Shown piece by piece: positions 27,152 to 46,600 of a stretch of 64,000 nt of DNA. Under the pieces are notes generated by a model, which saw only the letters and a program-made list of their open reading frames with translations, made no database searches and had not been told where the DNA came from. Both the position numbers and the translations under genes were made by a program. How positions within the stretch are numbered: the stretch's first letter is position 1; every line of letters begins with the position of its first letter. The DNA comes from a virus: the IMG/VR virus record IMGVR_UViG_3300028197_001237, positions 1 through 64,000 of that record. One strand, given 5' to 3'.

Positions 27152-27177
27152 TTGATAACCAAATGATGAGTAATATT

Positions 27178-27212
27178 GTTACTCACCTCTAAACTGCCCC
27201 ATCACTGTAGAC
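27178..27212 (+). promoter_or_regulatory. Early/middle element copy 1
   Basis: GTTACTCACC block, CTGCCCCAT block, then TGTAGAC. The ATG of the 66-aa gene follows 12 bp later (27225). One A shorter than the 36-bp form. Confidence 0.75.
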
Positions 27213-27224
27213 AACTAACTCATC

Positions 27225-27425
27225 ATGATCAACAACTCTGCTGTACTTCGTGAACTTATGGAGATGAAAAAGACATACACAAGTCAGAGATTCAGTTTTA
27301 CTGGTTCTCAACAACAAAGGTATGATATTCTTCTTCAACTTCGTCGAGATCGTGTTAAGTCTTTTTATGATGATCGACGTGTGTGGGTTGGACCATCTGA
27401 AGCTGGAAAATCTAAAGGAGAGTAA
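27225..27425 (+). CDS. Small basic hypothetical protein, 66 aa
   Basis: 'MINNSAVLRELMEMKKTYTS' and 'RYDILLQLRRDRVKSFYDD'. Basic, helical; conserved type of cyanophage early protein. Controlled by element copy 1 and closed by an intrinsic terminator at 27440, so probably a single-gene unit. The start is preceded by CATC and no Shine-Dalgarno. Confidence 0.6.
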   Translation: MINNSAVLRELMEMKKTYTSQRFSFTGSQQQRYDILLQLRRDRVKSFYDDRRVWVGPSEAGKSKGE

Positions 27426-27439
27426 GGTTGATTGATATG

Positions 27440-27464
27440 AAAGGGAGGTTATGACCTCCCTTTT
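27440..27464 (+). terminator. Intrinsic terminator
   Basis: Perfect 10-bp stem AAAGGGAGGT / ACCTCCCTTT with a TATG loop and T-rich tail, 15 bp after the 66-aa gene. Confidence 0.8.
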
Positions 27465-27504
27465 AGTCAAACATTAGTCCATATTATCATGCACTCATAT
27501 ATGA

Positions 27505-27512
27505 GATAAATA
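27505..27512 (+). promoter_or_regulatory. Late promoter GATAAATA
   Basis: Late motif in the intergenic gap, 22 bp before the ATG at 27534. It implies late expression of the next two genes inside an otherwise early cluster. Confidence 0.6.
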
Positions 27513-27533
27513 TATTTAAAGACCTGTAAATAA

Positions 27534-27722
27534 ATGGCATATCTCATTAAAAGACAATCTCAGATTGATGATCGCTATGTTTACTTTGTGGGTAGTCAAT
27601 CTTGGTCTGATGATAGATCATTAGCTGTGGAGTTTGAAACTGAGAATGATGCTAAAATGTTGTTTTTGAACGCTGATGGATTGAATGGTGGTTTTAAAAC
27701 AGCTATTGCTGAGGAAAAGTAA
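27534..27722 (+). CDS. Small hypothetical protein, 62 aa
   Basis: 'MAYLIKRQSQIDDRYVYFVG' then 'SWSDDRSLAVEFETENDAKM'. A small alpha/beta protein of unknown function. Late promoter in front; its TAA overlaps the ATG of the capsid-targeted protein, so the two are likely co-expressed late. Confidence 0.6.
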   Translation: MAYLIKRQSQIDDRYVYFVGSQSWSDDRSLAVEFETENDAKMLFLNADGLNGGFKTAIAEEK

Positions 27723-28324
27723 TGAAAACATTTAGAGAGTTTATTTCAGAAGCTTCTATTCCTGATGAACTAGCAGGTGGTGCCTCTATTAGACAATCAG
27801 GTGAGGGTGGTAGAGTATATCGTAAGAGGAAGAAGTCCGAGGCAGAGACACGCCGAATGAAGGCAATTGGTGGTGGTAAGACTGCACCTGTCGGATATAA
27901 GGACAGGAAGGACATTGGATCCCAGAAGAAACGTAGTGAAAAAGAACAACAACCAGAAAAAGAGAGAGGAACAGCAGCACTCTCTGCCAAAGAAGCACAA
28001 CGTAAGGCATACAGAGAACGTAAAGCGAGAGAAGCAAGTAATAAATCTACTCCTGAAACTAGCAGATCAAAGGAAAAAGAAGCATCCAAACTTCTGACTA
28101 AGAAAACTGCACCTAAGAAACCTGCACCGGGATATAAATCACAACCCGCAAGTGGTAAGACTCGCGTAGAACGTGACAAGATACGCGGAGAGGGTGAAAG
28201 ATACCTGAAAGGTATTATGAAAGATCAAGAAACTTCTAAGTACAAGAAAGAAACTGGGACCAATCCCGATGCTAAGGGTAAGACAAAGATTCTTGGACGT
28301 GTCAATAAGAGAATGAGCACCTAA
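27722..28324 (+). CDS. Putative internal (capsid-packaged) protein with T4-type targeting sequence, 200 aa
   Basis: The N-terminus 'MKTFREFISEA' matches the T4 capsid-targeting sequence 'MKTYQEFIAEA' of internal proteins IPI-IPIII. 'ISE-A' fits the I/L-x-E cleavage rule of the prohead protease gp21, so cleavage after Glu10 is predicted. The mature part is very rich in Lys, Arg, Glu, Ser and Pro with no hydrophobic core: disordered, strongly basic, suited to packing with DNA. T4 internal proteins are injected with the genome and counter host defences. A late promoter at 27505 fits a virion protein. The 158-aa ORF on the opposite strand is a shadow. Confidence 0.7.
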   Translation: MKTFREFISEASIPDELAGGASIRQSGEGGRVYRKRKKSEAETRRMKAIGGGKTAPVGYKDRKDIGSQKKRSEKEQQPEKERGTAALSAKEAQRKAYRERKAREASNKSTPETSRSKEKEASKLLTKKTAPKKPAPGYKSQPASGKTRVERDKIRGEGERYLKGIMKDQETSKYKKETGTNPDAKGKTKILGRVNKRMST

Positions 28325-28329
28325 TTATA

Positions 28330-28533
28330 ATGAATTACACTAAAGAACAACTTGTGGACGCACTTGTTCATGAGTGGGAATACCTCTGCCATGATGATTA
28401 TGACCCAGAAGATCCAACACCAGAAGAATATCGCAAAGATATGGAAGAACTTACAATCGAACAATTGATTGAGGAAACATCAACTGGAGAGGGTTACACA
28501 CTTGATGAATTTATGGAAAATCACAGCAATTAA
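28330..28533 (+). CDS. Conserved small acidic cyanophage protein, 67 aa
   Basis: 'MNYTKEQLVDALVHEWEYLC' then 'DDYDPEDPTPEEYRKDMEEL' and 'TGEGYTLDEFMENH'. Strongly acidic and helical. Recognised as a common cyanophage early protein without function. Its stop is followed within 2 bp by element copy 2. Confidence 0.65.
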   Translation: MNYTKEQLVDALVHEWEYLCHDDYDPEDPTPEEYRKDMEELTIEQLIEETSTGEGYTLDEFMENHSN

Positions 28534-28534
28534 A

Positions 28535-28570
28535 GTTACTCACCTCTAAAGTGCCCCATAGATGTAAGAC
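28535..28570 (+). promoter_or_regulatory. Early/middle element copy 2
   Basis: GTTACTCACC block, GTGCCCCATAGATG, then TAAGAC. The ATG at 28586 is 15 bp downstream. Confidence 0.8.
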
Positions 28571-28585
28571 ACTTTAAACCACACT

Positions 28586-28768
28586 ATGATTAGCTATCTC
28601 GTTAAATGTCCATCTGATCCTTATGAGAATACCGATTGTTTCGATGATCTTGACAGGGCATGGGATCTATGTTTCAATTTATCTGAAGAGTACGGATACG
28701 CAGAGGTTGGATACTATAATGTCAAAGGACATTATCAACTTGTAGGTGATTATACAAACGGTAAATGA
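28586..28768 (+). CDS. Small hypothetical protein, 60 aa
   Basis: 'MISYLVKCPSDPYENTDCFD' then 'DRAWDLCFNLSEEYGYAEV' and 'YYNVKGHYQLVGDY'. Acidic alpha/beta protein. First gene of an operon led by element copy 2 that continues through 29260 by stop-start overlaps. Confidence 0.6.
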   Translation: MISYLVKCPSDPYENTDCFDDLDRAWDLCFNLSEEYGYAEVGYYNVKGHYQLVGDYTNGK

Positions 28769-28893
28769 ATATGTGGGAAGAAATTCAAGACTCACCCGGT
28801 GAGATCTATGACATGGAAGATTTCTACAAACAGTTAGAAGAACTCCGTGAAATTATGGACAAATGTGTTAAACTTGAGGAAGAACAATCATGA
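28765..28893 (+). CDS. Small acidic coiled protein, 42 aa
   Basis: 'MNMWEEIQDSPGEIYDMEDF' then 'YKQLEELREIMDKCVKLEEE'. Probable single amphipathic helix or coiled coil. ATGA overlaps on both ends support it. Function unknown. Confidence 0.5.
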   Translation: MNMWEEIQDSPGEIYDMEDFYKQLEELREIMDKCVKLEEEQS

Positions 28894-29102
28894 TTACTAT
28901 TCACAAGTATGAACTCGAAATCCTTCTTGAAGGTATTGAAGACACGATGAAAGTTTTGTCTAATGTTGATTATACAGTGGACAAATATGATCCTCGTAAT
29001 GTAGAGAAAACTGCACCATATTCAATAGGTTATTCTCGATCTAGTCTCAGAGTTATTCGCGAAACTCTCACAAGGATGATTCAGGATGACAAAAACTCAT
29101 GA
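28890..29102 (+). CDS. Small hypothetical protein, 70 aa
   Basis: 'MITIHKYELEILLEGIEDTM' then 'APYSIGYSRSSLRVIRETL'. Mostly helical. Coupled to both neighbours by 4-bp overlaps; the start context is AATCATG. No function recognised. Confidence 0.55.
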   Translation: MITIHKYELEILLEGIEDTMKVLSNVDYTVDKYDPRNVEKTAPYSIGYSRSSLRVIRETLTRMIQDDKNS

Positions 29103-29260
29103 CAATTTACAATTGCAAAGGTGCATGGTATGATAGACGTGGAGCAAGACATAATTTTGAGATCGAATCTGACCGTGCAGAGCGTCGATTTATCATTGAA
29201 CTTGTAGAGTCGAGGTATCCTACAGATAAGGTGGTAATTAACTCTGTCCGTCAAAAGTAA
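29099..29260 (+). CDS. Small basic hypothetical protein, 53 aa
   Basis: 'MTIYNCKGAWYDRRGARHNF' then 'ERRFIIELVESRYPTDKVV'. Basic, beta-alpha pattern; overlaps the preceding TGA. Closes the operon of element copy 2. Confidence 0.55.
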   Translation: MTIYNCKGAWYDRRGARHNFEIESDRAERRFIIELVESRYPTDKVVINSVRQK

Positions 29261-29272
29261 CAACTAATTAAA

Positions 29273-29308
29273 GTTACTCACCCCCAAACTGCCCCATTGA
29301 TGTAAGAC
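29273..29308 (+). promoter_or_regulatory. Early/middle element copy 3
   Basis: GTTACTCACC block, CTGCCCCATTGATG, then TAAGAC; the ATG of the nucleotidyltransferase-like gene is 12 bp downstream. Confidence 0.8.
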
Positions 29309-29320
29309 ACCACAAACATT

Positions 29321-30199
29321 ATGACATCCACCCATCTCGAACATCCTGAAGATCTTATCCTCACGGGTGATATTTCTGTGATTGATGCACTATATGCACC
29401 CGCAGATATTACTATGAAGATGGATGGTATGTCACTTGTTTGGGGTACTAATCCTGAGAATGGTAAGTTTTTTGTTTGTACCAAAGCAGCATTCAACAAG
29501 AAAAAGATTCGTCTTTGTTATACTACAGACGACATCTTCACTCACTTTGGTCATCAAATAGAAGTCGTTGAGATTCTGTCATATTGTATCAAGTATCTTC
29601 CCCGAACAGAGAACATTTATTGGGGTGATTGGTTGGGTTTTGGTCGGACTCAACTCCTAAAACCTAACACTATTTCTTATCTCTTTCCTGAGAAAATCTC
29701 TCAAAAGATGGTGATTGCACCTCATACTCAGGTATTTGTTGATGGTCCTATGTGTGAAGCAACATGTAAACCATTGATTGAGATCTTAGATGACACCGCT
29801 ATCATCAAGTGGGTACAACCTTCCATTGATCGTCTTCCTTCCAATGAAACTGCACCGAATCTGAACACCTCTAAGGTTCAGTTCATGACAACTAAAGAGG
29901 CAAATGTTGCGAAACAGAAGATCAATTCCCTGGTCAAAGAGGGTCGTGAGTTGACTGATTCCAACCTATTTGATATTCTTGGTTGTGTCTATCTCACCAA
30001 TCTTTATCAACTGATCATCGAGATCAAAGAAGACATCATGAATTCTATGATTATCAATGATGCACCTCGTAGTTTCATTTTTGATGATGTAGAAACTGAT
30101 GGTGAGGGATATGTATTCCACACTGAGAACGTTTCATTCAAACTTGTCAATCGTGAGGAGTTTGCATACGCTAACTTCACTGACGGTCGTTTCAACTAA
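29321..30199 (+). CDS. Putative covalent nucleotidyltransferase (ligase-like, KxDG), 292 aa
   Basis: 'TMKMDGMSLVWGTNPENGKFF' is cited in parts: the K33-M-D35-G36 tetrad is the active-site motif of DNA/RNA ligases and capping enzymes, and the 'NPENGKFFVCTKAAFNKK' text matches a cyanophage family I recall as DUF6267. 'YWGDWLGFGR' (100-109) may be motif III. 'EGYVF' (262-266) and 'FKLV' (273-276) fit motifs IV and V. It would transfer AMP to a nucleic-acid or other end. No OB-fold or HxH partner domain is seen, so it is shorter than classical ligases. It is led by element copy 3; a helicase gene follows nearby. Confidence 0.55.
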   Translation: MTSTHLEHPEDLILTGDISVIDALYAPADITMKMDGMSLVWGTNPENGKFFVCTKAAFNKKKIRLCYTTDDIFTHFGHQIEVVEILSYCIKYLPRTENIYWGDWLGFGRTQLLKPNTISYLFPEKISQKMVIAPHTQVFVDGPMCEATCKPLIEILDDTAIIKWVQPSIDRLPSNETAPNLNTSKVQFMTTKEANVAKQKINSLVKEGRELTDSNLFDILGCVYLTNLYQLIIEIKEDIMNSMIINDAPRSFIFDDVETDGEGYVFHTENVSFKLVNREEFAYANFTDGRFN

Positions 30200-30205
30200 T
30201 TCATC

Positions 30206-30355
30206 ATGATTCGTTTTCTTTATCTCATTGCAATCGGTTCATTGTTCGTTGCGACTATCAACATCTTCTCTCCAGATAGTGAGGCAGAGAGGAGACAAGA
30301 GGCAAAATCTGCACTCGAAAGGCTCATGAGACCTCCCTCAAACGTTATTCAATAA
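30206..30355 (+). CDS. Small membrane-anchored protein, 49 aa
   Basis: 'MIRFLYLIAIGSLFVATINI' is a hydrophobic N-terminal helix (signal anchor), followed by a charged helix 'EAERRQEAKSALERLM'. The start context is TCATCATG. The TAA touches element copy 4. Function unknown. Confidence 0.55.
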   Translation: MIRFLYLIAIGSLFVATINIFSPDSEAERRQEAKSALERLMRPPSNVIQ

Positions 30356-30356
30356 A

Positions 30357-30391
30357 GTTACTCACCTCTAAATTGCCCTATAGTTATAGAC
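30357..30391 (+). promoter_or_regulatory. Early/middle element copy 4
   Basis: GTTACTCACC block, TTGCCCTATAGTTATAGAC. The helicase ATG follows 9 bp later. One base shorter than the 36-bp form. Confidence 0.75.
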
Positions 30392-30400
30392 ACCTACATT

Positions 30401-31582
30401 ATGACAATCACCCTCCGTCCACACCAGCAACGTGGACTCGATGCACTCAAACAGAATGCTATCGGTCAGGTGATTGTTCCGACTGGTGGTGGTAAGACTC
30501 TGATCGCAATCATGGACGCTATGCGTCGTTTTGAGATCAAAGTTCCTCGCGTCATTGTTGTTGTCGCACCTCGTATTCTTCTTGCAGAACAACTTTGTTC
30601 TGAGTATCTGGAGCACATCACAAACGCAAATGTTCTCCATGTTCATAGTGGAGAAACCAAACATTTCAAGACAACTAAGTCAGAACGCATCAAGTTGTTT
30701 GTGGAGATGTGTCAAACCGTTCGTGAACATGTCATCATCTTCACGACATATCATTCTTTGCACCGTGTGCAAGAGTCTGGAATCCCTGTAGACACGATTT
30801 ACTTTGACGAGGCACATAACTCGGTTCAACGTAACTTCTTCGGTCCTACAGAGTATTTCTCACGTCATGCAGATCGTTGTTACTACTTCACTGCAACCCG
30901 TAGGACTTCGATCACTATCAACAAGCCAGGGATGAACGATCGTGAGATCTATGGTGACATCATCACTCGCGTATCTGCACCCGAACTTGTTAATGGTGGA
31001 TTCATCCTTCCCCCTAAAGTGAAGGTGATCGAGATGGATAAGGTGGACAGAGCATCTGTTACTCCACACCTTGAGAGTAACAACATTCTCTCTACGATTG
31101 ATGAGATGAATATCAAAAAGATTCTAGTATGTTCTAAGACTACGAAACAACTCACCACGATCTTTCAGACTGACTTTGCAGACCAACTTGCACAACGTGG
31201 ATACTCTTATCTTTACATAACTGCAAAGACAGGTGCTGTTGTTGATGGTAAGAAAGTCAGTCGTGAGGTATTCTTCGAGACACTGAATGCATGGGGTAAA
31301 GATACAGACAAAAAGTTTGTTGTACTTCATCGCTCGATTCTGTCTGAAGGTATCAACGTATCGCAACTGGAATGTGTCATCTTCATGAGGAACATGAATA
31401 TCATTGAGATGACTCAGACTATCGGTCGTGTTCTTCGCAAAGGTGGACAATCGAAGACCTATGGGTTCTGTGTTGTCCCTGTTTATTCTAAGGTTGGTAT
31501 CTCTACCGCCAAGGGATTGCAGACTGTTGTTGATACCGTGTTTGAAAAGGGTGAGATGCTTGACTCTGTTGTTCGTCGTTAA
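30401..31582 (+). CDS. Superfamily 2 DNA/RNA helicase, 393 aa
   Basis: Walker A 'PTGGGKT' (27-33), DEAH box 'FDEAHN' (135-140), motif III 'FTATRR' (163-168) and motif VI 'QTIGRVLR' (339-346) are all present in order, with a Q-tip-like 'LRPHQQRGL' at the start. These define an ATP-dependent SF2 helicase of the DEAH/UvsW/RecQ-like broad class. It is close in size to small phage helicases such as T4 UvsW but lacks an obvious extra DNA-binding domain. A role in recombination-dependent replication or origin-transcript removal is inferred. Led by element copy 4. Confidence 0.85.
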   Translation: MTITLRPHQQRGLDALKQNAIGQVIVPTGGGKTLIAIMDAMRRFEIKVPRVIVVVAPRILLAEQLCSEYLEHITNANVLHVHSGETKHFKTTKSERIKLFVEMCQTVREHVIIFTTYHSLHRVQESGIPVDTIYFDEAHNSVQRNFFGPTEYFSRHADRCYYFTATRRTSITINKPGMNDREIYGDIITRVSAPELVNGGFILPPKVKVIEMDKVDRASVTPHLESNNILSTIDEMNIKKILVCSKTTKQLTTIFQTDFADQLAQRGYSYLYITAKTGAVVDGKKVSREVFFETLNAWGKDTDKKFVVLHRSILSEGINVSQLECVIFMRNMNIIEMTQTIGRVLRKGGQSKTYGFCVVPVYSKVGISTAKGLQTVVDTVFEKGEMLDSVVRR

Positions 31583-31587
31583 TTTAT

Positions 31588-31800
31588 ATGAAACAACCAA
31601 CCAATTCGTATATTCTAGATTGTAAACCAGGACCGTTATCTTTTGTTGTAGGTGATTGGGATGATGCAGAGAGTTTCTATGCGGCAGTTCCCTGTAATAA
31701 TGGATTGGCGATTGTTAATCAAGGAAATGTAATAAAGGTTTGCAGAAACACATCTTCTGCACGAAAGTTCATCAATAAACATCAAAAACGTAGGAAATAA
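31588..31800 (+). CDS. Small hypothetical protein, 70 aa
   Basis: 'MKQPTNSYILDCKPGPLSFV' then 'DDAESFYAAVPCNNGLAIV' and a very basic tail 'ARKFINKHQKRRK', which could bind nucleic acid. It directly follows the helicase gene (5-bp gap) and its TAA abuts element copy 5. Confidence 0.55.
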   Translation: MKQPTNSYILDCKPGPLSFVVGDWDDAESFYAAVPCNNGLAIVNQGNVIKVCRNTSSARKFINKHQKRRK

Positions 31801-31801
31801 A

Positions 31802-31837
31802 GTTACTCACCCCTAAAGTGCCCTATTGATGTAAGAC
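31802..31837 (+). promoter_or_regulatory. Early/middle element copy 5
   Basis: GTTACTCACC block, GTGCCCTATTGATG, TAAGAC; ATG at 31850, 12 bp downstream. Confidence 0.8.
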
Positions 31838-31849
31838 ACCACAAAGATT

Positions 31850-32038
31850 ATGACACCAACCACCAAAGCACAAGCACTGGAACAATTCCGTTACAACTGG
31901 AAAGTTTCAACTATGGGCACACGGACAGCAACAGATAGCATCGCAAAACGTGAGGCATGGGGAATCTTTACTGATGAACTTTGTAAGGAAGGTTACATCA
32001 CCATGAAGAAGTACGAATCATGGTCTAACCCTTTCTGA
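31850..32038 (+). CDS. Small hypothetical protein, 62 aa
   Basis: 'MTPTTKAQALEQFRYNWKVS' then 'REAWGIFTDELCKEGYITM'. Helical; the pattern 'R-x-x-W-x-x-x-T/D-x-L-C-K-x-G-x-I' recalls other small phage proteins that end in 'YESWSNPF'. Function unknown. Under element copy 5. Confidence 0.6.
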   Translation: MTPTTKAQALEQFRYNWKVSTMGTRTATDSIAKREAWGIFTDELCKEGYITMKKYESWSNPF

Positions 32039-32068
32039 TTCAAACTTCACAAACTTTTTATTATCATC

Positions 32069-32401
32069 ATGACAACAATCACTCAATCCAAAACCGAATG
32101 TTTGCTTGAAGTTGTTAACAACGAATGGAAAGTTAATGCAATTGAATCAGGACATAGTTCATACTCTAAGTTAGAATATAGTGTAGGTAAGAAATATATC
32201 AAACTGAATCAATTCAGGGTTCATGCTGATAACAGTTTTTCAAATAACGGTGTGTTCATGTTTATCGATAAAGAGACTGAAGCATGTTACAAACCCGCAT
32301 CATTCAAGGCACCTGCTAAAGGTATCCGGTTCTTTCTTGAGTCCTTAGTTGAGAATCCCGATCTAGTAGATCCTTACGGTTCTTTCCTCTATGTTCGTTA
32401 A
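32069..32401 (+). CDS. Hypothetical protein, 110 aa
   Basis: 'MTTITQSKTECLLEVVNNEW' then 'GKKYIKLNQFRVHADNSFSN' and 'GVFMFIDKETEACYKPASF'. Predominantly beta. The 'VFMFIDKETEACYKPASFKAP' region is the sort of conserved core seen in cyanophage early proteins. Start context TTATCATCATG without a Shine-Dalgarno. Function unknown. Confidence 0.6.
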   Translation: MTTITQSKTECLLEVVNNEWKVNAIESGHSSYSKLEYSVGKKYIKLNQFRVHADNSFSNNGVFMFIDKETEACYKPASFKAPAKGIRFFLESLVENPDLVDPYGSFLYVR

Positions 32402-32438
32402 ATCTATTACTTTACACTCACACTAATTAACAACCATC

Positions 32439-32579
32439 ATGAATGAATTCAAAGTCACATTGTCTAAAGGTGGTCGTCACATTGTTATCACAGTGATGGC
32501 AGAATCGACTCATCGAGCATACAAACAGGCAGAACATTTATATCCTGGATGTAGGGCCCTGAACGCAAAGATGATGTAA
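32439..32579 (+). CDS. Small hypothetical protein, 46 aa
   Basis: 'MNEFKVTLSKGGRHIVITVM' then 'STHRAYKQAEHLYPGCRALN'. Beta-beta-alpha pattern. Start context ACCATCATG. It is followed by element copy 6. Function unknown. Confidence 0.55.
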   Translation: MNEFKVTLSKGGRHIVITVMAESTHRAYKQAEHLYPGCRALNAKMM

Positions 32580-32584
32580 TTAAA

Positions 32585-32620
32585 GTTACTCACCTCTAAA
32601 CTGCCCTATAGATGTAAGAC
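32585..32620 (+). promoter_or_regulatory. Early/middle element copy 6
   Basis: GTTACTCACC block, CTGCCCTATAGATG, TAAGAC; ATG at 32632, 11 bp downstream. Closest copy to the consensus. Confidence 0.8.
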
Positions 32621-32631
32621 ACACACCAACC

Positions 32632-32883
32632 ATGACTAACTCAACTTTTCAAACCACAATCGAAGATACCACGTACAACGGGTGGACAAACTATGAGACC
32701 TGGAATGTAGCACTCTGGATCGGAAATGACGAAGGTTTGTATAACATAGCACGTCGTTGTTATTCATATCAAGATTTCGTCAATCGTTATACGGAAGAAG
32801 GTGATACAACTTTAGATGGAGTAAAGTGGGATGATGTTAACCTGAACATCGTTGAACTTGATGAAATGATAGAGGAACTTTGA
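32632..32883 (+). CDS. DUF7249-like protein, 83 aa
   Basis: 'YNGWTNYETWNVALWIGNDE' is a widespread motif in phage and plasmid small proteins (a DUF7249-type family by recollection), followed by 'YNIARRCYSYQDFV'. Trp-rich; molecular role unknown, often found in early phage genes. First gene behind element copy 6. Confidence 0.7.
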   Translation: MTNSTFQTTIEDTTYNGWTNYETWNVALWIGNDEGLYNIARRCYSYQDFVNRYTEEGDTTLDGVKWDDVNLNIVELDEMIEEL

Positions 32884-32885
32884 TC

Positions 32886-33053
32886 ATGAATAAAAGAACA
32901 CAAACTAAAGTTCAAAAACATCTAGAAGACCCATATAATCGTCTTAACTATTGTTATGAATTCATTGGTGAAGATGAAGATATGAATCGAAAATGTTATA
33001 AGAGAATCTATCACTATCTTTCCGTACTAACCGACACCGAGTATCACTACTAA
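32886..33053 (+). CDS. Small hypothetical protein, 55 aa
   Basis: 'MNKRTQTKVQKHLEDPYNRL' then 'EDEDMNRKCYKRIYHYLSVL'. Helical with basic and acidic patches. Context GATCATG, 2 bp after the previous stop. Function unknown. Confidence 0.5.
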   Translation: MNKRTQTKVQKHLEDPYNRLNYCYEFIGEDEDMNRKCYKRIYHYLSVLTDTEYHY

Positions 33054-33055
33054 TC

Positions 33056-33337
33056 ATGAATTACACTCTCAAGCAACTTCAAGACAAAGTGTCACGAATG
33101 ATTGAACAACAGGGAGAAGATGCAGAATGTGCCGTGTGGATTTATACCAAGAATGATTGTTATTTAAAAGACGAAGATGGTAACGTTGATTATGGTAACA
33201 ACGTAGAAGATCCTGCACTGATTGCACGTATCTTTGATGATGTTGGCAACATGGATTACATTTACACTGAGATTCAAGAGTGTGTAGATGAAGCAACAGA
33301 AGAGCAATTGATGTTATATCAGCAGGAGTTAGTTTGA
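33056..33337 (+). CDS. Acidic hypothetical protein, 93 aa
   Basis: 'MNYTLKQLQDKVSRMIEQQG' then 'AVWIYTKNDCYLKDEDGNV' and 'ECVDEATEEQLMLYQQEL'. Strongly acidic; the acidity and size resemble DNA-mimic or antirestriction candidates, but no family is recognised. TGATG overlap with the next gene. Confidence 0.55.
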   Translation: MNYTLKQLQDKVSRMIEQQGEDAECAVWIYTKNDCYLKDEDGNVDYGNNVEDPALIARIFDDVGNMDYIYTEIQECVDEATEEQLMLYQQELV

Positions 33338-33513
33338 TGATTGACTTCCCTATCTACAAGAAACAACTCCCACAAATCTGGATGGAGGATGATAAGTTTA
33401 TTATCGAATCATCATCATTCCGATATGTAATAGAAGACGACTTAAAACTATTGTTTAAGTTATGTCGTCGTTTTAAATCTGAAGCAATCAAACAAACTTA
33501 CATCACTAATTAA
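33337..33513 (+). CDS. Small hypothetical protein, 58 aa
   Basis: 'MIDFPIYKKQLPQIWMEDDK' then 'SFRYVIEDDLKLLFKLCRRF'. ATG shares its A with the preceding TGA. Function unknown. Confidence 0.5.
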   Translation: MIDFPIYKKQLPQIWMEDDKFIIESSSFRYVIEDDLKLLFKLCRRFKSEAIKQTYITN

Positions 33514-33517
33514 CATC

Positions 33518-33685
33518 ATGATCAAAACACAACTACTCAAAGTCGTCGGTGAAACTTCAAAGGGCATTGATGCTAACCTGACACGATTAGAAAAGTTTGA
33601 AGTATTCTGTCAAGTATGTGATGGATTACTCAAAGATGGTAGGATTAGCTCTGCTAAACATCAATCATGGACCAATGTATTCTAA
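33518..33685 (+). CDS. Conserved small cyanophage protein, 55 aa
   Basis: 'MIKTQLLKVVGETSKGIDAN' then 'EVFCQVCDGLLKDGRISSAK'. Helical; 'LLKDGRISSAKHQSWTNVF' is a phrase typical of recurrent cyanophage small proteins. Context AACATCATG. It is the true gene here; the longer ORF at 33597 is out of frame with it. Function unknown. Confidence 0.55.
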   Translation: MIKTQLLKVVGETSKGIDANLTRLEKFEVFCQVCDGLLKDGRISSAKHQSWTNVF

Positions 33686-33698
33686 TGAAAACTACAAC

Positions 33699-33851
33699 AT
33701 GAAACAAACCAAAACCCTATCAATGAAGAATAGGAAAGAAGAACTCTTCAATGCTTACTTTGAAGCATCTGATGAAATGAAACAAATGAAAGAAGAACAA
33801 AAGATCTTGATTGTTATTTGTTCAGTATTGTTCATTTTCACCATGATTTAA
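33699..33851 (+). CDS. Tail-anchored small membrane protein, 50 aa
   Basis: A charged N-terminal helix ('KEELFNAYFEASDEMKQMK') followed by a C-terminal hydrophobic segment 'ILIVICSVLFIFTMI' makes a tail-anchor arrangement with the charged part in the cytoplasm. ATG at 33699 chosen inside a longer frame, because the 5' part overlaps the preceding gene. Function unknown. Confidence 0.5.
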   Translation: MKQTKTLSMKNRKEELFNAYFEASDEMKQMKEEQKILIVICSVLFIFTMI

Positions 33852-33856
33852 TTCTA

Positions 33857-34048
33857 ATGAAAACTACAACAGCAACTTACAAAATTGAAGTGACACAAGA
33901 GACAGGAAATGTTTTGACTTATGTGAGAACAATGCCCACAAGACCAACAACAACTAAGGGTCAAATTGCACAGATGAATAGGTTAGAGAATTGGGTAAGT
34001 AAGGTTTCATATAAACCTACCAAAGTCAAGATTGAACTTCAAAAATGA
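33857..34048 (+). CDS. Small basic hypothetical protein, 63 aa
   Basis: 'MKTTTATYKIEVTQETGNVL' then 'QMNRLENWVSKVSYKPTKV'. Basic, beta-rich. ATG at 33857 is 5 bp after the upstream stop. Function unknown. Precedes element copy 7. Confidence 0.5.
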   Translation: MKTTTATYKIEVTQETGNVLTYVRTMPTRPTTTKGQIAQMNRLENWVSKVSYKPTKVKIELQK

Positions 34049-34079
34049 TATCAATTATATGAATCATCAATGAATTAAA

Positions 34080-34115
34080 GTTACTCACCTCTAAACTGCC
34101 CTATAGGTGTAAGAC
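34080..34115 (+). promoter_or_regulatory. Early/middle element copy 7
   Basis: GTTACTCACC block, CTGCCCTATAGGTG, TAAGAC; ATG at 34132, 16 bp downstream. Confidence 0.8.
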
Positions 34116-34131
34116 ACTTCCAACCAACACC

Positions 34132-34476
34132 ATGAGAAAGATCGAATCCCAAATGTGTCAGGCAATCAAAGACAATAAGTCTTGGAAGTCTGGTAACACT
34201 GAAGTACAATACGTGGGAGATGATCTCTCTATTGTATATCTTCACGGTAACAAAATTGCAGTTGTTGATGATACTACTATGTCAATCTTTGATGGTGGTT
34301 GGCAATCAGTTACAACAAAGTCTAGACTCAACGCACTTTGTGATGAATTTTGTATCACTGGAGAAGGAGTCTTTCAGAAGGATTTCCTCTGGTATGTAAG
34401 AAAGTTCGTTGGATGTATCAACGGAAAGAATGTCTATCAGACTCAAGATTTTAAATCCGGTTATCTCTTTGCCTGA
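34132..34476 (+). CDS. Hypothetical protein, 114 aa
   Basis: 'MRKIESQMCQAIKDNKSWKS' then 'GNTEVQYVGDDLSIVYLHGN' and 'SRLNALCDEFCITGEGVFQK'. An alpha/beta protein with 'YLHGNKIAVVDDTTMSIFDGG', recognised as a common cyanophage early protein of unknown role. First gene behind element copy 7; its stop overlaps the next ATG. Confidence 0.6.
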   Translation: MRKIESQMCQAIKDNKSWKSGNTEVQYVGDDLSIVYLHGNKIAVVDDTTMSIFDGGWQSVTTKSRLNALCDEFCITGEGVFQKDFLWYVRKFVGCINGKNVYQTQDFKSGYLFA

Positions 34477-34595
34477 TGTGTAGTTTACTCTTATGGATAA
34501 TCACATTCTATTGTTTATCTAAGTGGACAGGATTAAGACGATTCATATCATCAATTCTATACGGATTAGCAAACTTCATTGACCCTAAATCATGA
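34476..34595 (+). CDS. Tiny membrane protein, 39 aa
   Basis: 'MCSLLLWIITFYCLSKWTGL' then 'RRFISSILYGLANFIDPKS'. An N-terminal transmembrane helix with an amphipathic second half. TGATG overlap with the gene before and ATGA overlap with the gene after make it very likely translated. Confidence 0.55.
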   Translation: MCSLLLWIITFYCLSKWTGLRRFISSILYGLANFIDPKS

Positions 34596-34879
34596 CTCCA
34601 ACAATCTCACAAATGAAAGACATTATCAATCAAGGAACAACAACCAAAGACAACATCATTGACAGAGATGAACTACAAGATCAATACATTAAAGAACTGA
34701 TTGATAGTATGGATTTCAAAACTATGGAAACATTTGTGTATGATACTATCAATGATAATCTTGATAGGTATTCTCTTGATGAACTAATTGAAGAGGTAGA
34801 AGAGTCTTACCCTGAACTCCTAGATGATACTGATCAGGATGATATACCTGAACCAAGTGAATTGACCGGATGGAATTAA
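34592..34879 (+). CDS. Acidic hypothetical protein, 95 aa
   Basis: 'MTPTISQMKDIINQGTTTKD' then 'DELQDQYIKELIDSMDFKTM' and a very acidic C-terminus ('EEVEESYPELLDDTDQDDI'). Helical. Last gene of the element-7 operon before the gene-free stretch. Acidity is compatible with a DNA-mimic or host-protein binder, but nothing specific is recognised. Confidence 0.55.
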   Translation: MTPTISQMKDIINQGTTTKDNIIDRDELQDQYIKELIDSMDFKTMETFVYDTINDNLDRYSLDELIEEVEESYPELLDDTDQDDIPEPSELTGWN

Positions 34880-35190
34880 CCTTTAAAATACACACATAAA
34901 TACAATGTTTTATATTAAAAAAGGTATTTAAAAACATATATGCGTGTTTTATTGTTTTCCACAAGGGTGTGGAATAAGTGAAGGAAAGTGTGGATAAACC
35001 CTGATATTATGTGTTGTTATGTGTTATAAACCTGTGGAGAAAGGTCTGATCTTATTATGACTTGTATCTGATAAAGGTCTGATCTTATTGTCATCTAAGG
35101 CCGTAGTCTATCAGGACTTCGAGAACATGTCAACCCCCCAATCCCGTCAAATCAGTATCCCTTATCTGTAACAGTCTCCAAGGTATTATT
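34880..35190. other. Gene-free stretch with DnaA-box-like cluster; candidate origin
   Basis: No ORF is credible. Within 90 bp there are four TTWTCCACA-type nonamers: TTTTCCACA (34955-34963), TGTGGAATA (34968-34976), a perfect DnaA-box TGTGGATAA (34989-34997) and TGTGGAGAA (35033-35041). The first two form a hairpin TTCCACA-AGGG-TGTGGAA. A 17-bp direct repeat (AAAGGTCTGATCTTATT) lies at 35040 and 35073. AT-rich DNA with a TATTTAAAAA core flanks it. A CATAAATA motif is at 34895-34902. Confidence 0.45.
35040..35089. repeat. 17-bp direct repeat, 33-bp period
   Basis: Perfect copies of AAAGGTCTGATCTTATT at 35040-35056 and 35073-35089, outside any gene, next to the DnaA-box-like cluster. Confidence 0.8.
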
Positions 35191-35225
35191 GTTACTCACC
35201 CCCAAATTGCCCCATGGATATGAAC
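35191..35225 (+). promoter_or_regulatory. Early/middle element copy 8
   Basis: GTTACTCACC block, TTGCCCCATGGATATGAAC. Most diverged copy; the start codon of the next gene (35220) lies inside its 3' end. Confidence 0.6.
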
Positions 35226-35390
35226 AACACTCAAACCATCCTCACCGAATCAGTCTTCTCAGACCTCTATAGTTTCGTCCTAGAGATGACACCTGATCTG
35301 GAAATGTGTCTTGACTATTGTGAATCTCAGGGAATCACAATCACTGATGATGTATTCACAGTGATTGAAGACTTACTAGAGAACAACTGA
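35220..35390 (+). CDS. Small acidic hypothetical protein, 56 aa
   Basis: 'MNNTQTILTESVFSDLYSFV' then 'EMTPDLEMCLDYCESQGITI'. Acidic and helical. ATG at 35220 or, two codons earlier, 35214; both lie within element copy 8, so if the element is the promoter the true start could be further downstream. Function unknown. Confidence 0.5.
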   Translation: MNNTQTILTESVFSDLYSFVLEMTPDLEMCLDYCESQGITITDDVFTVIEDLLENN

Positions 35391-35415: not shown

Positions 35416-35541
35416 ATGACCAGTTATACTAACCTGATCAACATCATCGATGAGTTACAACAATCAGGAGTGAAACCAAAGGTAACAGTTCTCAAGACAA
35501 AGAAAGGTCCTAAGCATTCCTTACTGACCAACACTAAGTAA
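35416..35541 (+). CDS. Small hypothetical protein, 41 aa
   Basis: 'MTSYTNLINIIDELQQSGVK' then 'PKVTVLKTKKGPKHSLLT'. Short basic protein; ATG 25 bp after the previous stop, preceded by TTGACATTAACTACC. Function unknown. Confidence 0.4.
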   Translation: MTSYTNLINIIDELQQSGVKPKVTVLKTKKGPKHSLLTNTK

Positions 35542-35544
35542 CAA

Positions 35545-35619
35545 CCTGGGCACGTTAGCGAAGCATCGATAAGTCCCAGATCAATAACTAGGCAGCACAG
35601 TATTCAGCGTAAGACCTAG
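35545..35619 (+). other. Two similar adjacent hairpins
   Basis: Between two small genes: stem CTGGG (35546-35550)/CCCAG (35575-35579) and stem CTAGG (35588-35592)/CCTAG (35615-35619). Both end in a TAAG-x-CC-x-AG pattern, which suggests a duplicated RNA structure or leader element. No known riboswitch consensus was matched. Confidence 0.35.
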
Positions 35620-35655
35620 AACAAATCCCCTCTATCTAACACTTTCTTCTTTATT

Positions 35656-35772
35656 ATGACTCTCGAACTTGCACTCGGATTGTTGGCTCAAGGTAACAAC
35701 GGTGATGAAATCCTTCAGATTCTCGATGTGATTCAGAATGACACATCTAACCCTGAGGAGATTACCTTCTAA
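35656..35772 (+). CDS. Conserved small cyanophage protein, 38 aa
   Basis: 'MTLELALGLLAQGNNGDEIL' then 'QILDVIQNDTSNPEEITF'. I recognise the 'G-x-x-GDEIL-x-ILD' phrase from tiny conserved cyanophage proteins. Helical. No function assigned. Confidence 0.55.
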   Translation: MTLELALGLLAQGNNGDEILQILDVIQNDTSNPEEITF

Positions 35773-35794
35773 GACACACCTATAAGAGTCTGTA

Positions 35795-35812
35795 GGGGGG
35801 TCTAATCCCCCC
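35795..35812 (+). terminator. G6/C6 hairpin after 38-aa gene
   Basis: GGGGGG, TCTAAT loop, CCCCCC, then TTCGG. It lacks a U-tract, so it may be a weak terminator or a stabilising 3' structure. Confidence 0.45.
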
Positions 35813-35953
35813 TTCGGTTACATACATTTAAGAACACTTACTAAGTATTACAAACAGACCAAGGGTGAGGTCTATAAACTCATATCCGGTGTGTGTTACA
35901 AACTGAGGGAGAGGAGTGGTGTCCTTTCCCTTTTTTATTACCTAGGGACAGTG

Positions 35954-35982
35954 TTGACAGACAGTGATATATGCGTTATGAT
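35954..35982 (+). promoter_or_regulatory. Sigma70 promoter TTGACA-N17-TATGAT
   Basis: Consensus -35 and a -10 matching 5 of 6 at 17-bp spacing. The RNA would begin near 35989 and run into the GC-rich hairpin with no ORF for 215 bp, so it may make a non-coding RNA or a long leader. Confidence 0.75.
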
Positions 35983-36204
35983 GATGTTGTGAATCGACAC
36001 GTTATTATTCGTCGGTTTATGATGCCGTCGGTCGGCGTAGCGGGTATAAAGCCGATCCGACCCCCCCCCGTTCTAAAAAAGTACCTAACCCTAACCTACA
36101 AAAGTATATACCCTCTTTCGAAATAATTCCCCCTATTTTTTTTCCCAGCTATGCCCAGCATATAGGGAGTTCCATATATAAAAACGAAATCCCATTGGAG
36201 GTTG

Positions 36205-40673: not shown

Positions 40674-43600
40674 ATGTCAGTAGATAGAGTAAAATTCCAG
40701 GACATAGTTGCCAGCCAACTTCCTTCTTTTATCAGAGATGATTTTCCTCTCCTATCAGAGTTTCTGGAACAGTATTATGTTTCACAGGAAACTCAAGGTG
40801 CGACATTAGATCTTCTTCAAAATATTGACAAATATGTCAATATTGATCAACTTACTGGTCTAAAATCTTCTACCGTTCTTCAGGTTGATATTAGTAGTGT
40901 AGATGATACAATTGTTACTGGTGTCGATGGTAATTTTACTGAAGGATTTGTTGATAATAATGGACTGATTAAAATTGATGATGAAATTATTGCATATAAT
41001 TCAAAGACTAATCTTAACTTTGAAGGATGCCAGAGAGGATTTAGTGGCACCACTTCACATACTTCTGCCAATATACCAGACAGACTATCCTTCTCAAGTC
41101 AAACTACACCCACCAATCACAAGAAAGGTGCTATAATTCAAAACCTGAATGTCTTGTTTCTTCAGGAGTTCTTTAGAAAGTTAAAGGCACAAGTAAGTCC
41201 TGGGTTCGGTGATAGAACACTGAAGACGAATCCAAAGAATTTTATTATCAATAGTAATAGTTTCTATAAGTCGAAAGGAACAGACTTATCATATAAGATT
41301 CTGTTTAAATCTCTATTTGGTGAGACTGTTGATATCATTCGCCCAAGTAGATTCCTACTCAAACCATCTAGCTCAAACTATAATGTAACAGAAGATATTG
41401 TTGTAAAGAGTTATATTGGTGATCCACTGCAACTCAAAAACCTTACATTATTTCAGAATTCAACACAAGCTCGTGGTACAGTCAACAATGTCTGTAAAAT
41501 TCAATATAATGATGGTGACTACTATCAACTGAGTATTGACTCTGGATATGATAGAGATGTTAATGTAACTGGTACAACTTACGGTAAGTTCAAACCAAAT
41601 CCTAAAACAAAACTCCTGAACACTGTTGCAGTTGGTGCAACAATCATGGATGTTGACTCTACTGTAAGTTTCCCTGAATCAGGAAAGTTAGAGATACCTG
41701 ATAGTGATGGCAATATAGTATCAATAGTATACACAGGAAAGACTGTCACTCAGTTCTTAAATGTGAGTGGAGTTAATGCTATACTCAGTGAGAAGACCGA
41801 TGTAGATCTCGATGATTATTCTTATTCTTATGTTGGTTTAGGTACTGATGACGAAGTCAGAGTAAGGATCACTTCCACACTGAAAGATCTTAAGATTCAG
41901 GATAGTGGTTTCTATAATAAGAGAGACACCATTAATATCAAGTCATTTGGTATTGAAGATGAGTCAATAAGAGGATCTGATTGGTTAGTCAACAATAAGT
42001 CAAGGTATGATGTCTCCAGCATCATTATTACTGACATTTCTGAACTTAAGTATGATGTGATAACATTCGACGATCACACATTGAAGATAGGATATAAAAT
42101 AATATTAAGTGACAATACTGGTGGCACTCTCGATGCTTCAATTATTGATATTGGAAGTAAGAAATCATTTACTATAAAGGCAAATTCATCAATTGATCTG
42201 AACAAGGTTTATAGTTTTGAGAATCAACTACTTAAAGTTTTCTCTCCGAAGTATAGTTTCCTTGGAAAGTACACTGCTAACGTTCAGAATACTTATTCAA
42301 ACTTCAATACTGATTTACTGATTGCAACCAACTCACTTCCATCTTATGGTGATCTAGGTCTTGATCCATATAATAAGACCCTGAATTTTAGTGGTTTTGC
42401 CACAGATAACATAATCAACTTTGGTTTACCTCATGGTTTCTACACTGGTGATGCGGTTTATTATCAACCAGGTGTAATAACAAATACAACAATCAACGCT
42501 GATGGAATCCCCATCACGACAACAACTGAAAGTAAATTTGAGGGAACAGAATCAGGTGTTTTCTATATTAAGAAAATCAATAATACTTCTGTCAAACTTT
42601 CAAGAAGTAGATCAGATTTATTCAGGAATGTATTTGCAAATCTAGGTGGATCTGTCAACAATAACGTCTTCACTTACTTTAGTTTCTACAACAAAACCAT
42701 TGCACCACAAGGGATCTACAGAAAGATCATTGAACCAGTCAGAGAATCTGGTCAGTTCAAAACTCTTCCAGGTTATAATGGAATATTCCTTAATGGTGTT
42801 GAACTTCTGAACTATAAGTCAGAAGATACCATCTTCTATGGACCAATTAAAAATCTAATTGTGACTGCCGGTGGTTCTGGTTATGATGTTGCCAACCCAC
42901 CTAGACTTACTATTAGGGATAATATTGGCATAGGAGCTACAGGTGTTGTTGCTGTTGAAGGTTCATTAGAAAGAATTGATATTGTAGATCAAGGTTTTGA
43001 CTTCTTGGGAACTCCTACAATATCAATTACCGGTGGCAATCCAATTAGACCTGCAAAGGCTGAAACTTCATTGGTTGACATTTTATATTCTGTCAATATT
43101 AATACTGAATTCAATGGTAATGTAAACATTGGAAACAATACTATTGGATTCTCATCATTTCATAAGTTTTCACAGAACGAGAAAATCGTTTATGATTCAA
43201 AAGAAATGAGATCTATTGGTGGACTGTCCACTAATACAACTTACTTTGCTAACGTAATTGATAACTTTAGGATATCCCTCCACACTAATGAAAAAGATTC
43301 TCAGTTAGGTATCAATACGATTACCTTCAATAATACATTTGGACAGGGAACTCAATCTTTGCATTCGGCAGAAACTAAAAAGATTGTAAGTAATATTGTT
43401 GTAACTGATTCTGGTGAAGGATACAAGAATAAAAAGAGATTAATTGTTGGTGTAGTTACTGCTACAGATTCATTCAAGATTGGTAATCATGGTTTTGAGA
43501 CGGGTGAAATAATTCAGTATACCTCAGGATCAACTGCAGTGCAAGGGATTCTAGAGAATACAAATTACTTTGTAATCAAGATTGATTCAGACAATTTCCG

Positions 43601-46600
43601 TCTCAGTGATTCCAAATCTGAATTTAATAATGGTGTCTATGTTGATATTAAAGGAGTGGGTGATGGTACTTTCAATTATGAACCAATCACTGTTAATATT
43701 AGTGGTATAACTAGAATTACCGAACGCAATGGTCAAGACTTCCAATGTAAGATACAACCTGCCTTCAGAGGTTCTATTGATTCTATTGACATTACCAATC
43801 GTGGTTCTCAGTATGGTTCTTCAGAAATCATCAATCTGAACAGAGAACCTGAAATTTTATTTGAGGGTGGACAACAAGCTCAAATCAAACCTGTCATTAA
43901 TAACGGCCGGTTTGTCGATATCATCATTGATAATTCAGGAAGAGAATATATTTCTCCACCAGATCTGATAATCATTGGAAATGGTAAGTATGCGAAACTC
44001 ACTCCCATTATCGAAAATGGAAAACTTGTAGATGTAAATATCATAAACCCTGGTATTGGTTATGTCGATGGTCAAACTTCTATTACAATTGCCAATCCTG
44101 GTAAAGGATGCGACGTAGAATCAAAGATCAATGAGTGGAGTATTAACCTTTTTGAAAGAAATAATGAGTTTGTCAATAATGACGACGGATTTGTTGATGA
44201 GAATCTTACTGGTGATAAAACAGAATACTGTCACCTATACACACCGAGAGAACTTAGAGAGTCATCTTATGTTCTAAAGAACAATGGTGATTCATTCTAT
44301 GGTATTGCTGACTTAGAAAAATCTAATGGTATTGAGATATCTAACAGTCACCACTCACCAATTATTGGTTGGGCATATGATGGAACTCCAATCTATGGTC
44401 CTTATGGGTATTCCACTCCTGAGGGTGGTGTAATCAAACAGATGAGAAGTGGTTATGAGTTGAATGTCAACCTTACCAATAGACCTTCTCCCAGTATATA
44501 CCCACAAGGATTCTTTATTGAAGATTTTCAGTTCACTGGTGTTGGTGACCTAGATGTTCATAATGGTAGGTTCTGTGTCACTCCAGACTATCCTGCAGGG
44601 GTCTACGCGTACTTTACGACGTTAGAACCAAATGTTGAGGCTCAAGGTCCATTTAGGAACTATAAAAAACCACAGTTCCCATATATTATTGGAGATACAT
44701 TTCATTCCAAGAGAATTGAGTTTAACTATAGTGTAGAATCAAACCAAACAGACTATGACATTCAAAAAAATGAGTGGTTCAGAAATACAAGGTCATATAA
44801 TACTAATAACCTCTATAGTGGATATGATTACATCTTTAATTCTAACAAAATTAAAAGACAAACCATAGAAGTAACGGGTATTAATCCTGGATTTATCAGT
44901 GGCGTTGGTATCTTTACTGGTGGCAGAAACTATCAGGTTGGTGAAAGAGTTATCTTTGATAATAAACAATCAGAAGGTAAAGGTGCTCAGGCAAGAGTCA
45001 GTTATGTTAATGGTAAAGAAATAAACACTGTAAGTATCGCTACTACTCTAACTCCAAACGTTGAGTTTATCAAATACTTTGGTCTCCAACAGTTTATTGG
45101 TTTCAGCTCACAACCACACAACTATCAGGACCAAGAATTAGTCAATGTCAGTGGTCTCTCCAACTACTACAAAGGTTTTGATGGACCATATAATGTTGGA
45201 GTAAGATCAGAAACTTTTGTTACTATTCTTGGTATTGGGACAGCATCTGCAACTGGTATTGCCACATACTTATATGTTGGTGGTGCTTTAGAGTTTCCAT
45301 TTATTAGACCAAATGACATTCTGGGTATTGGAACAGAAAAAGTCAAAGTTCTCAATATTGAAGAAGAAAGTCAGAGAATTCGTGTTCTCAGAGAACAGGA
45401 ATCGACAGTAGGTCTTGCTTATTCAACAGGTCAAATTCTGATTGGTGATCCAAGAAAGTTCACTATCAATGTTGGAACTCTAACGACAGATAAGTCATTC
45501 AGAGTAAATGAAGAATTGTACTTTGATCCTCCAGAGGCAGTCGGTATCGGAACGACCACTGGCAACGGTGTAGGAACCCCTGTAACGTTCAGAAACCCAG
45601 GTATAGGGGCAACTACCCTATTCATTGAACCACAGTCAATCTACTACAAAAATCATGGTCTGAAACTGAATGACAAGGTTGTTTATTCATTGAATGGTGG
45701 AACATCAATCGGTGTTTATAATGGTATCTCTGATGCCAACCTTACCGATTATAGTGAACTATATGTAGCTCCATTAACTAATAATTTCATCGGTATCTCG
45801 TCGCATAAAGTTGGTATGACAACCACTGGTACCTATGTTGGTATCGGAACTACAACCGGTCTCTTATTTTTCAGAGATACTGGAACAGGTGATCATCATA
45901 GCTTCAAGACGGTAAGATCTGATATTCTAAGAACTCAGGTAAGTCGTAATATTGTTACTGTTTCAACTGCAACTACACATGGACTGAGACCAAATAATAA
46001 TGTAAGAGTCAATATCAAACCAACTGATATCCAAACAGTTGATGTGAGATTTAATAAATTTAATAGAAGAATTGTATTCAATCCTATTGGTTTTACCTCT
46101 GAAAATGTTGACACCACACTCAATACATTGTATATCTCTAACCATGAGTTTTCTCTTGGTGATAAAGTAGTTCATCAATCTTCATCTCCTGCAGGGGGTT
46201 TAGTGAACGAGAAGATGTATTATGTGATTCCTTATAGTAGAGATGAAATCAGACTGGTAGAAGATAAGTACCAGATCAATGAAGAGGAACCAATCTTTGT
46301 AGGTATTACAAGTACAGGTCTTGGCGGCACTATCTCCAAGATAAACCCCCTTACTAAGACTAGAAAAAATAATAATCTTAAGTTTGATCTTTCGGATCCT
46401 TCACTCTCATTCCTCTCGAATGGTGTGAAGTATCCAGCATTCAAGATGTTTGTATATCTTGATCAAGAGTTCAATAAAGAGTTTGTCACTACTGGAACTA
46501 AGACAGATAATAAATTTGAAGTGTCTCGTAGTGGATCAGTTGGTATCACATCTGATGCTAACCTGACTATTGAAATTACTGACGATGTGCCTTCCAGACT

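Follow-up and report, generated by a model that had tools for sequence, protein, structure and literature searches.

We analysed 64,000 nucleotides (nt) of viral DNA (positions 1 to 64,000 of IMG/VR record IMGVR_UViG_3300028197_001237; hereafter the window), in which an initial annotation had noted eight copies of a promoter-like element of 36 base pairs (bp). All eight were present at the positions it gave, on the plus strand throughout (Table 1). Their occurrence greatly exceeds chance expectation. They scored 50–59 bits against a weight matrix derived from related contigs; no other site in the 64 kilobases (kb) reached 6 bits, nor did any in a shuffled control, and a search of the 89.3-kb parent virus record yielded no copies beyond these eight. 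Taking the G of GTTACTCACC as position 1, so that the element occupies positions 1–36, the window consensus is TAWW-GTTACTCACC-YCY-AAA-N-TGCCCY-A..-TGTAAGAC, and the conserved stretch reaches about 5 bp further upstream (RWTAWW). GTTACTCACC is the dominant box of the element, as first described.

Two classes of copy are distinguished here by the 3' block: class A copies carry TGTAA with the start codon downstream, and class B copies carry TATG at positions 29–32. The block had been described as TGTAAGAC or a close variant in every copy, but the copy at 35191 reads TATGAAC. In copies 1–7 an ATG lies at position 45–53, a gap of 8–16 nt past the element rather than the 9–16 bp first given. The reported lack of a Shine-Dalgarno sequence ahead of these seven leadered genes was confirmed, but many other cluster genes also have none, so its absence before element genes is not diagnostic. 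In copy 8 the start codon lies within the element, and a second ATG at 35214 is in frame with that at 35220. Two unusually long stretches lacking a clear gene (34880–35190 and 35540–36200) surround this copy in an otherwise tightly packed cluster, the second of them containing a terminator-like hairpin at 35905–35932.

Distribution and anatomy of the element

A DNA pattern scan recovered the window-type element in 44 IMG/VR contigs, many with several copies, and a looser pattern (ACTCACC-N3-AAA-N12-TGTAA) gave many more among the matches listed, some of these loci being chance matches. The search across cyanomyoviruses proposed in the initial annotation found it in five cultured phages (SynMITS9220M01, S-B05, S-B43, RN05-S and RB11-B) besides the contigs, and the box was found in neither the Syn9 nor the S-CAM8 genome. 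Across whole genomes the box was counted 10 times in SynMITS9220M01 and 8 times in S-B43, and a 222-kb contig had 15, on one strand in each; most of these copies belong to a single cluster of small genes. All copies of SynMITS9220M01 and of the 222-kb contig lie inside a single 10–15 kb stretch, which in SynMITS9220M01 precedes the gp25/gp6 baseplate genes, the same as in the window; those of S-B43 form two blocks (54–56 kb and 201–209 kb of the record). Judged by these matches, the eight window copies are members of a large phage-specific, promoter-like family, and the suggestion of a dedicated phage regulon holds up. Among the papers covered by our literature search, none was found that prints the motif.

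We picked 494 distinct copies by the 5' box alone from the loci collected in this analysis. Their constant parts are TAWW-RTTACTCACC-YYY-AAA-N12-TRTRA, with the 5' box at positions −3 to 16 and the 3' block at 29–33. TRTRA began at position 29 and matched completely in 384 copies and in three or four of its letters in 105 more, and the 12-nt spacing between AAA and TRTRA was fixed in at least 489 of the 494 exact-box copies and clearly shifted in 2 only. Such rigid spacing argues for recognition at the DNA level. Position 29 was T in 95% and position 31 in 93% of copies; position 30 held A in a fraction of 0.38 and G in 0.62, against 0.00 for C and for T. The seven bases past AAA (positions 17–23) form a lineage-specific core that is uniform within a genome: CTGCCCC in the window, and GTGTCCC, GTGTCCT, GTGGACC, YGTCCAC or TGACTCC elsewhere. 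Mean core mismatch was 0.204 within contigs versus 0.448 between them (minimum of 200 label shuffles, 0.432). An inverted half-site, GGTGAGTAA, stands directly upstream in about 35 of 216 window-lineage copies; at window 27165–27187 and in these related copies, a minority, it precedes TTACTCACC to form a dyad that is perfect or nearly so.

Genes that start within the element

Genes, defined as open reading frames (ORFs) of at least 40 amino acids (aa), could be assigned to 442 distinct copies. TATG occupied positions 29–32 and the ATG at position 30 (ATG30) was the start codon of the gene in 109 of them, and in 333 the gene started at positions 44–60. ATG30 was the only start in 52 copies, another 57 had a further ATG in the same frame from position 44 onwards, and no assignable copy had its sole start at 31–43 or before 30. 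Every downstream ATG of class B was in frame with ATG30 (62/62), whereas class A starts showed no preferred frame with respect to position 30 (110/102/96). Where a class B protein had no second ATG, its start coincided with that of its class A orthologue in 14 of 19 alignments. The class spans 29 protein families and 46 contigs, and includes the SynMITS9220M01 orthologue of the copy-3 gene (DUF6267), which starts at position 30. On this comparative evidence ATG30 is a real, translated start codon in class B. The RNA must then contain position 30, and so starts at or upstream of it.

The initial annotation had instead tentatively taken TGTAAG/TATAGA at positions 29–34 as the −10 (TAGTRT at 26–31 would serve similarly), with GTTACTCACC substituting for the −35 and the RNA starting 5–10 bp downstream, at 37–41, to give a leader of under 15 nt. 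The conserved block does have about the length of a promoter from −45 to −7, and TAGTRT is a fair TAnnnT. However, ATG30 lies inside the supposed −10 and upstream of that start, so the 109 class B genes, seven of them directly behind terminators, would lose their start codon. Position 30 is moreover interchangeably A or G, unlike the A at −11, and a sigma-70 scan gave no match in the register with the −10 at 29–34. We consider this placement very doubtful.

Transcription initiation at the element

A strong intrinsic terminator (for example GGAGGGTATTGCCACCCTCCTTTTTT) lies upstream of 13 distinct copies, of which 7 belong to class B when their sequences are inspected. The T-run ends 3–21 nt before position 1 in 12 of the 13 and about 36 nt before it in one. 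With terminators right before 12 copies, the gene that follows needs a transcription start of its own. In contig L115 the T-run stops 3 nt short of the element and the start codon of the gene is at position 30; if the terminators work, the RNA start is thereby confined to about 30 bp.

These observations bear on two readings in which the element is no promoter. As a signal in RNA (a translation enhancer, repressor site or processing site) within long polycistronic transcripts, it would be expected directly between closely spaced genes and at a consistent distance from their start codons, as copies are; but the terminators immediately upstream of 12 copies, the rigid 12-nt spacing and the few copies with no start codon nearby make this quite improbable. 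A leader peptide running through the element was excluded by TAA at 13–15 in many copies. We regard as extremely unlikely an operator or other DNA site (for repressor binding, replication or a recombination module) that does not itself promote transcription: the inverted half-site and the uniformity of cores within genomes would suit it, but most copies have no half-site, on which count a dyad operator was rejected, and the fixed relation to start codons, together with the terminators, favours transcription initiation.

The element is best read as a phage-specific promoter, and its family probably activates a group of clustered takeover genes. As a promoter it would give single genes of the cyanophage host-takeover cluster their own transcription start, with host RNA polymerase and an additional factor initiating at T29|R30. 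Leaderless mRNA beginning with AUG would then come from class B (TATG) copies, as we infer for copy 8, and class A (TGTAA) copies would give an A/C-rich leader of about 14–25 nt without a Shine-Dalgarno sequence; changing two bases (TGTAA to TATGA) would turn the leadered mode into the leaderless one. Gene position alone suggests early timing. Initiation at T29|R30 would account for the invariant pyrimidine (−1)/purine (+1) pair and the class B start codon at +1, for the lack of starts at 31–43 (too deep for a leaderless mRNA, too short for a leader) and for the absent Shine-Dalgarno sequence. We lean moderately towards this combination of host polymerase, helper factor, T29|R30 start, leaderless class B and leadered class A. 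The proposal that a start at position 30 and a two-base leaderless/leadered toggle go together with a diverged core, uniform within genomes and implying a co-evolving specificity factor, is more tentative and falls somewhat short of probable.

Several points weigh against initiation at T29|R30. With +1 at position 30, the GC-rich, lineage-specific core falls at −12 to −7 and is unlike any sigma-70 −10, so that an additional factor must be assumed. The TAnnnT-like hexamer TAGTRT at 26–31 would, at ordinary sigma-70 spacing, give a start near 38, although class B genes exclude that start. The T29|R30 position was itself derived from sequence, and the candidate factor genes carry no DNA-binding annotation.

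The RNA might also start further upstream, near A8–C10, with TAWWRT at −3 to 2 as the −10. Most of the element would then be a conserved 5' leader, perhaps an RNA operator, of about 20 nt in class B and 35–45 nt in class A. Such leader lengths are ordinary, the A at −2 (98%) and the T at 2 match a TAnnnT −10, and the sigma-70 scan matched copy 1 in this register (TTGATA-16-TATTGT). The site preferred by T4 RegA, aaAAUUGUUAUGUAA (PMC3014915), resembles CAUUGAUGUAA, and the complete element phages encode RegA; but so, equally, do Syn9 and S-CAM8, both without the element. There is also no −35 conservation, the other seven window copies have no sigma-70 match in this register, the strongest conservation would fall in the discriminator and the beginning of the RNA, and neither the rigid distance to TRTRA nor the lack of starts at 31–43 would be explained. 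We judge an upstream start unlikely. Another −10, YAAANT at 13–18 with a start at A24, was rejected because the S-B43 and L061 lineages do not conserve T18 and A24.

Candidate factors and known systems

For the T4-like cyanophage Syn9, Doron et al. (2016) reportedly described a non-T4 regulatory element that governs early genes in this phage group. The element described here is similar in lying in the corresponding gene cluster. In Syn9 and S-CAM8, CTATARNAGTCAAAGG occurs ahead of several cluster genes, about 20–30 nt before the ATG and with a Shine-Dalgarno-like AAAGG. Four orthologues there (DUF6267, helicase, phrog_336 and Kyano_Gp96) have CTATARNAGTCAAAGG or another TATAAT-like box, whereas at least those of DUF6267, the helicase and Gp96 have the element instead in other element phages. 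By comparison with these two genomes, neither of which contains our box, the element is unlikely to be the Syn9 early motif.

The element had also been likened to T4 middle promoters, which depend on MotA/AsiA and carry WWWTGCTTtA 12±1 bp upstream of TAtaaT (PMC2988021). Both have a phage box in the −35/−30 region, and TGCYYYA in the element somewhat resembles the MotA box TGCTTtA. However, TGCYYYA lies 4–5 bp and not 12 bp from TGTAAG, it varies by lineage, and no TATAAT follows. The MotA family (PF09114) was detected in the T4 control (3.2e-63) but in none of S-B43, SynMITS9220M01, the 222-kb contig and the 89-kb parent record, and on these points the likeness to middle promoters was not borne out. 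Marine T4-like cyanophages have been reported without motA and/or asiA (PMC5780444).

T7-type promoters are similar in forming a contiguous conserved block that includes the would-be start site, in their lineage-specific bases and in the string ACTCAC, but no T7-type single-subunit RNA polymerase (PF00940) was found in element phages (T7 control, 9.9e-110). A phage-encoded activator, as originally envisaged, was sought among genes that element phages have in common but Syn9 and S-CAM8 lack; this gene-content comparison gave no annotated activator, and the candidates checked (for example phrog_8074, with CxxC...CxC, and phrog_6501) had no DNA-binding annotation. The T4-like late promoter string TATAAATA is in none of the eight window copies.

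Leaderless promoters of bacteria and giant phages place the start codon at or beside +1 and work independently of a Shine-Dalgarno sequence. The present case would differ in having a leaderless and a leadered form of a single promoter side by side, separated by a two-base switch.

Sequences following the element and other features of the window

In several contigs distinct sequences follow the element. Together with the first codons, CCCCATGRATATGAAYAMMAC, it stands ahead of several different genes, as if the element and N-terminus were a mobile module, and a longer common leader, CAGACCCCTCTAGAATC.GTCTG, with a small stem-loop separates it from the ATG elsewhere (Table 1). A conserved hairpin, CACCCTTTACA-N-TGTAAGGGTG, rather than a start codon lies 3' of the element at L156:7534-7682, L138 (-) 2625 and L057 (-) 4542; the hairpin precedes the helicase gene in SynMITS9220M01, and may be a structured leader or small RNA. 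At L003:3917 and L030:2840 the element is followed by GGAGACGGACCCACCGACACCTCCCTCC... with no ORF near, possibly the start of a non-coding RNA.

Elsewhere in the window, AAATAACTAAAAA-type sequences, presumably late promoters, occur immediately ahead of structural genes (13958, 16106, 18806, 19130 and 20801), some of which have a Shine-Dalgarno sequence upstream and others not. A 4007-aa ORF at 40674-52697 takes the place of the 12.2-kb SynMITS9220M01 gene annotated as baseplate wedge initiator.

Table 1. Element copies, the genes they precede, and sites of recurrent downstream sequences (window coordinates unless a contig is named).
Feature	Span or site	Strand	Details
Copy 1	27178..27213	+	Class A, exact box; gene start at position 48; half-site ATGAGTAATATT directly upstream
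Copy-1 gene	27225..27425	+	phrog_3262, function not assigned
Copy 2	28535..28570	+	Class A (TGTAAGAC); gene start at position 52
Copy-2 gene	28586..28768	+	phrog_17176, function not assigned
Copy 3	29273..29308	+	Class A; gene start at position 49
Copy-3 gene	29321..30199	+	DUF6267 protein / phrog_455
Copy 4	30357..30392	+	Class A variant TATAGAC; gene start at position 45
Copy-4 gene	30401..31582	+	Superfamily 2 DNA helicase (phrog_16)
Copy 5	31802..31837	+	Class A; gene start at position 49
Copy-5 gene	31850..32038	+	phrog_336
Copy 6	32585..32620	+	Class A; gene start at position 48
Copy-6 gene	32632..32883	+	DUF7249 / phrog_871
Copy 7	34080..34115	+	Class A; gene start at position 53
Copy-7 gene	34132..34476	+	Kyanoviridae Gp96 family (Kyano_Gp96) / phrog_554
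Copy 8	35191..35226	+	Class B, TATGAAC at 29-35; start codon 35220 (position 30) within element
Copy-8 gene	35220..35390	+	56 aa (58 aa if from 35214); weak phrog_10297 match
Element with CCCCATGRATATGAAYAMMAC	window 35214-35231; L020:9113 and 9358; L043:1005; L004:1562		Element and first codons
CAGACCCCTCTAGAATC.GTCTG leader	L148 (-) 3280; L144:1302; L134:7782; L152 (-) 4140		Between element and ATG

Implications

Marine T4-like cyanophages are reported without MotA/AsiA, and the family bears on how their early and middle genes are ordered. The element marks which small genes are co-regulated, and the family predicts precisely where RNA 5' ends should fall in cultured phages. It would also offer a natural system in which to compare leaderless and leadered translation of orthologous genes.

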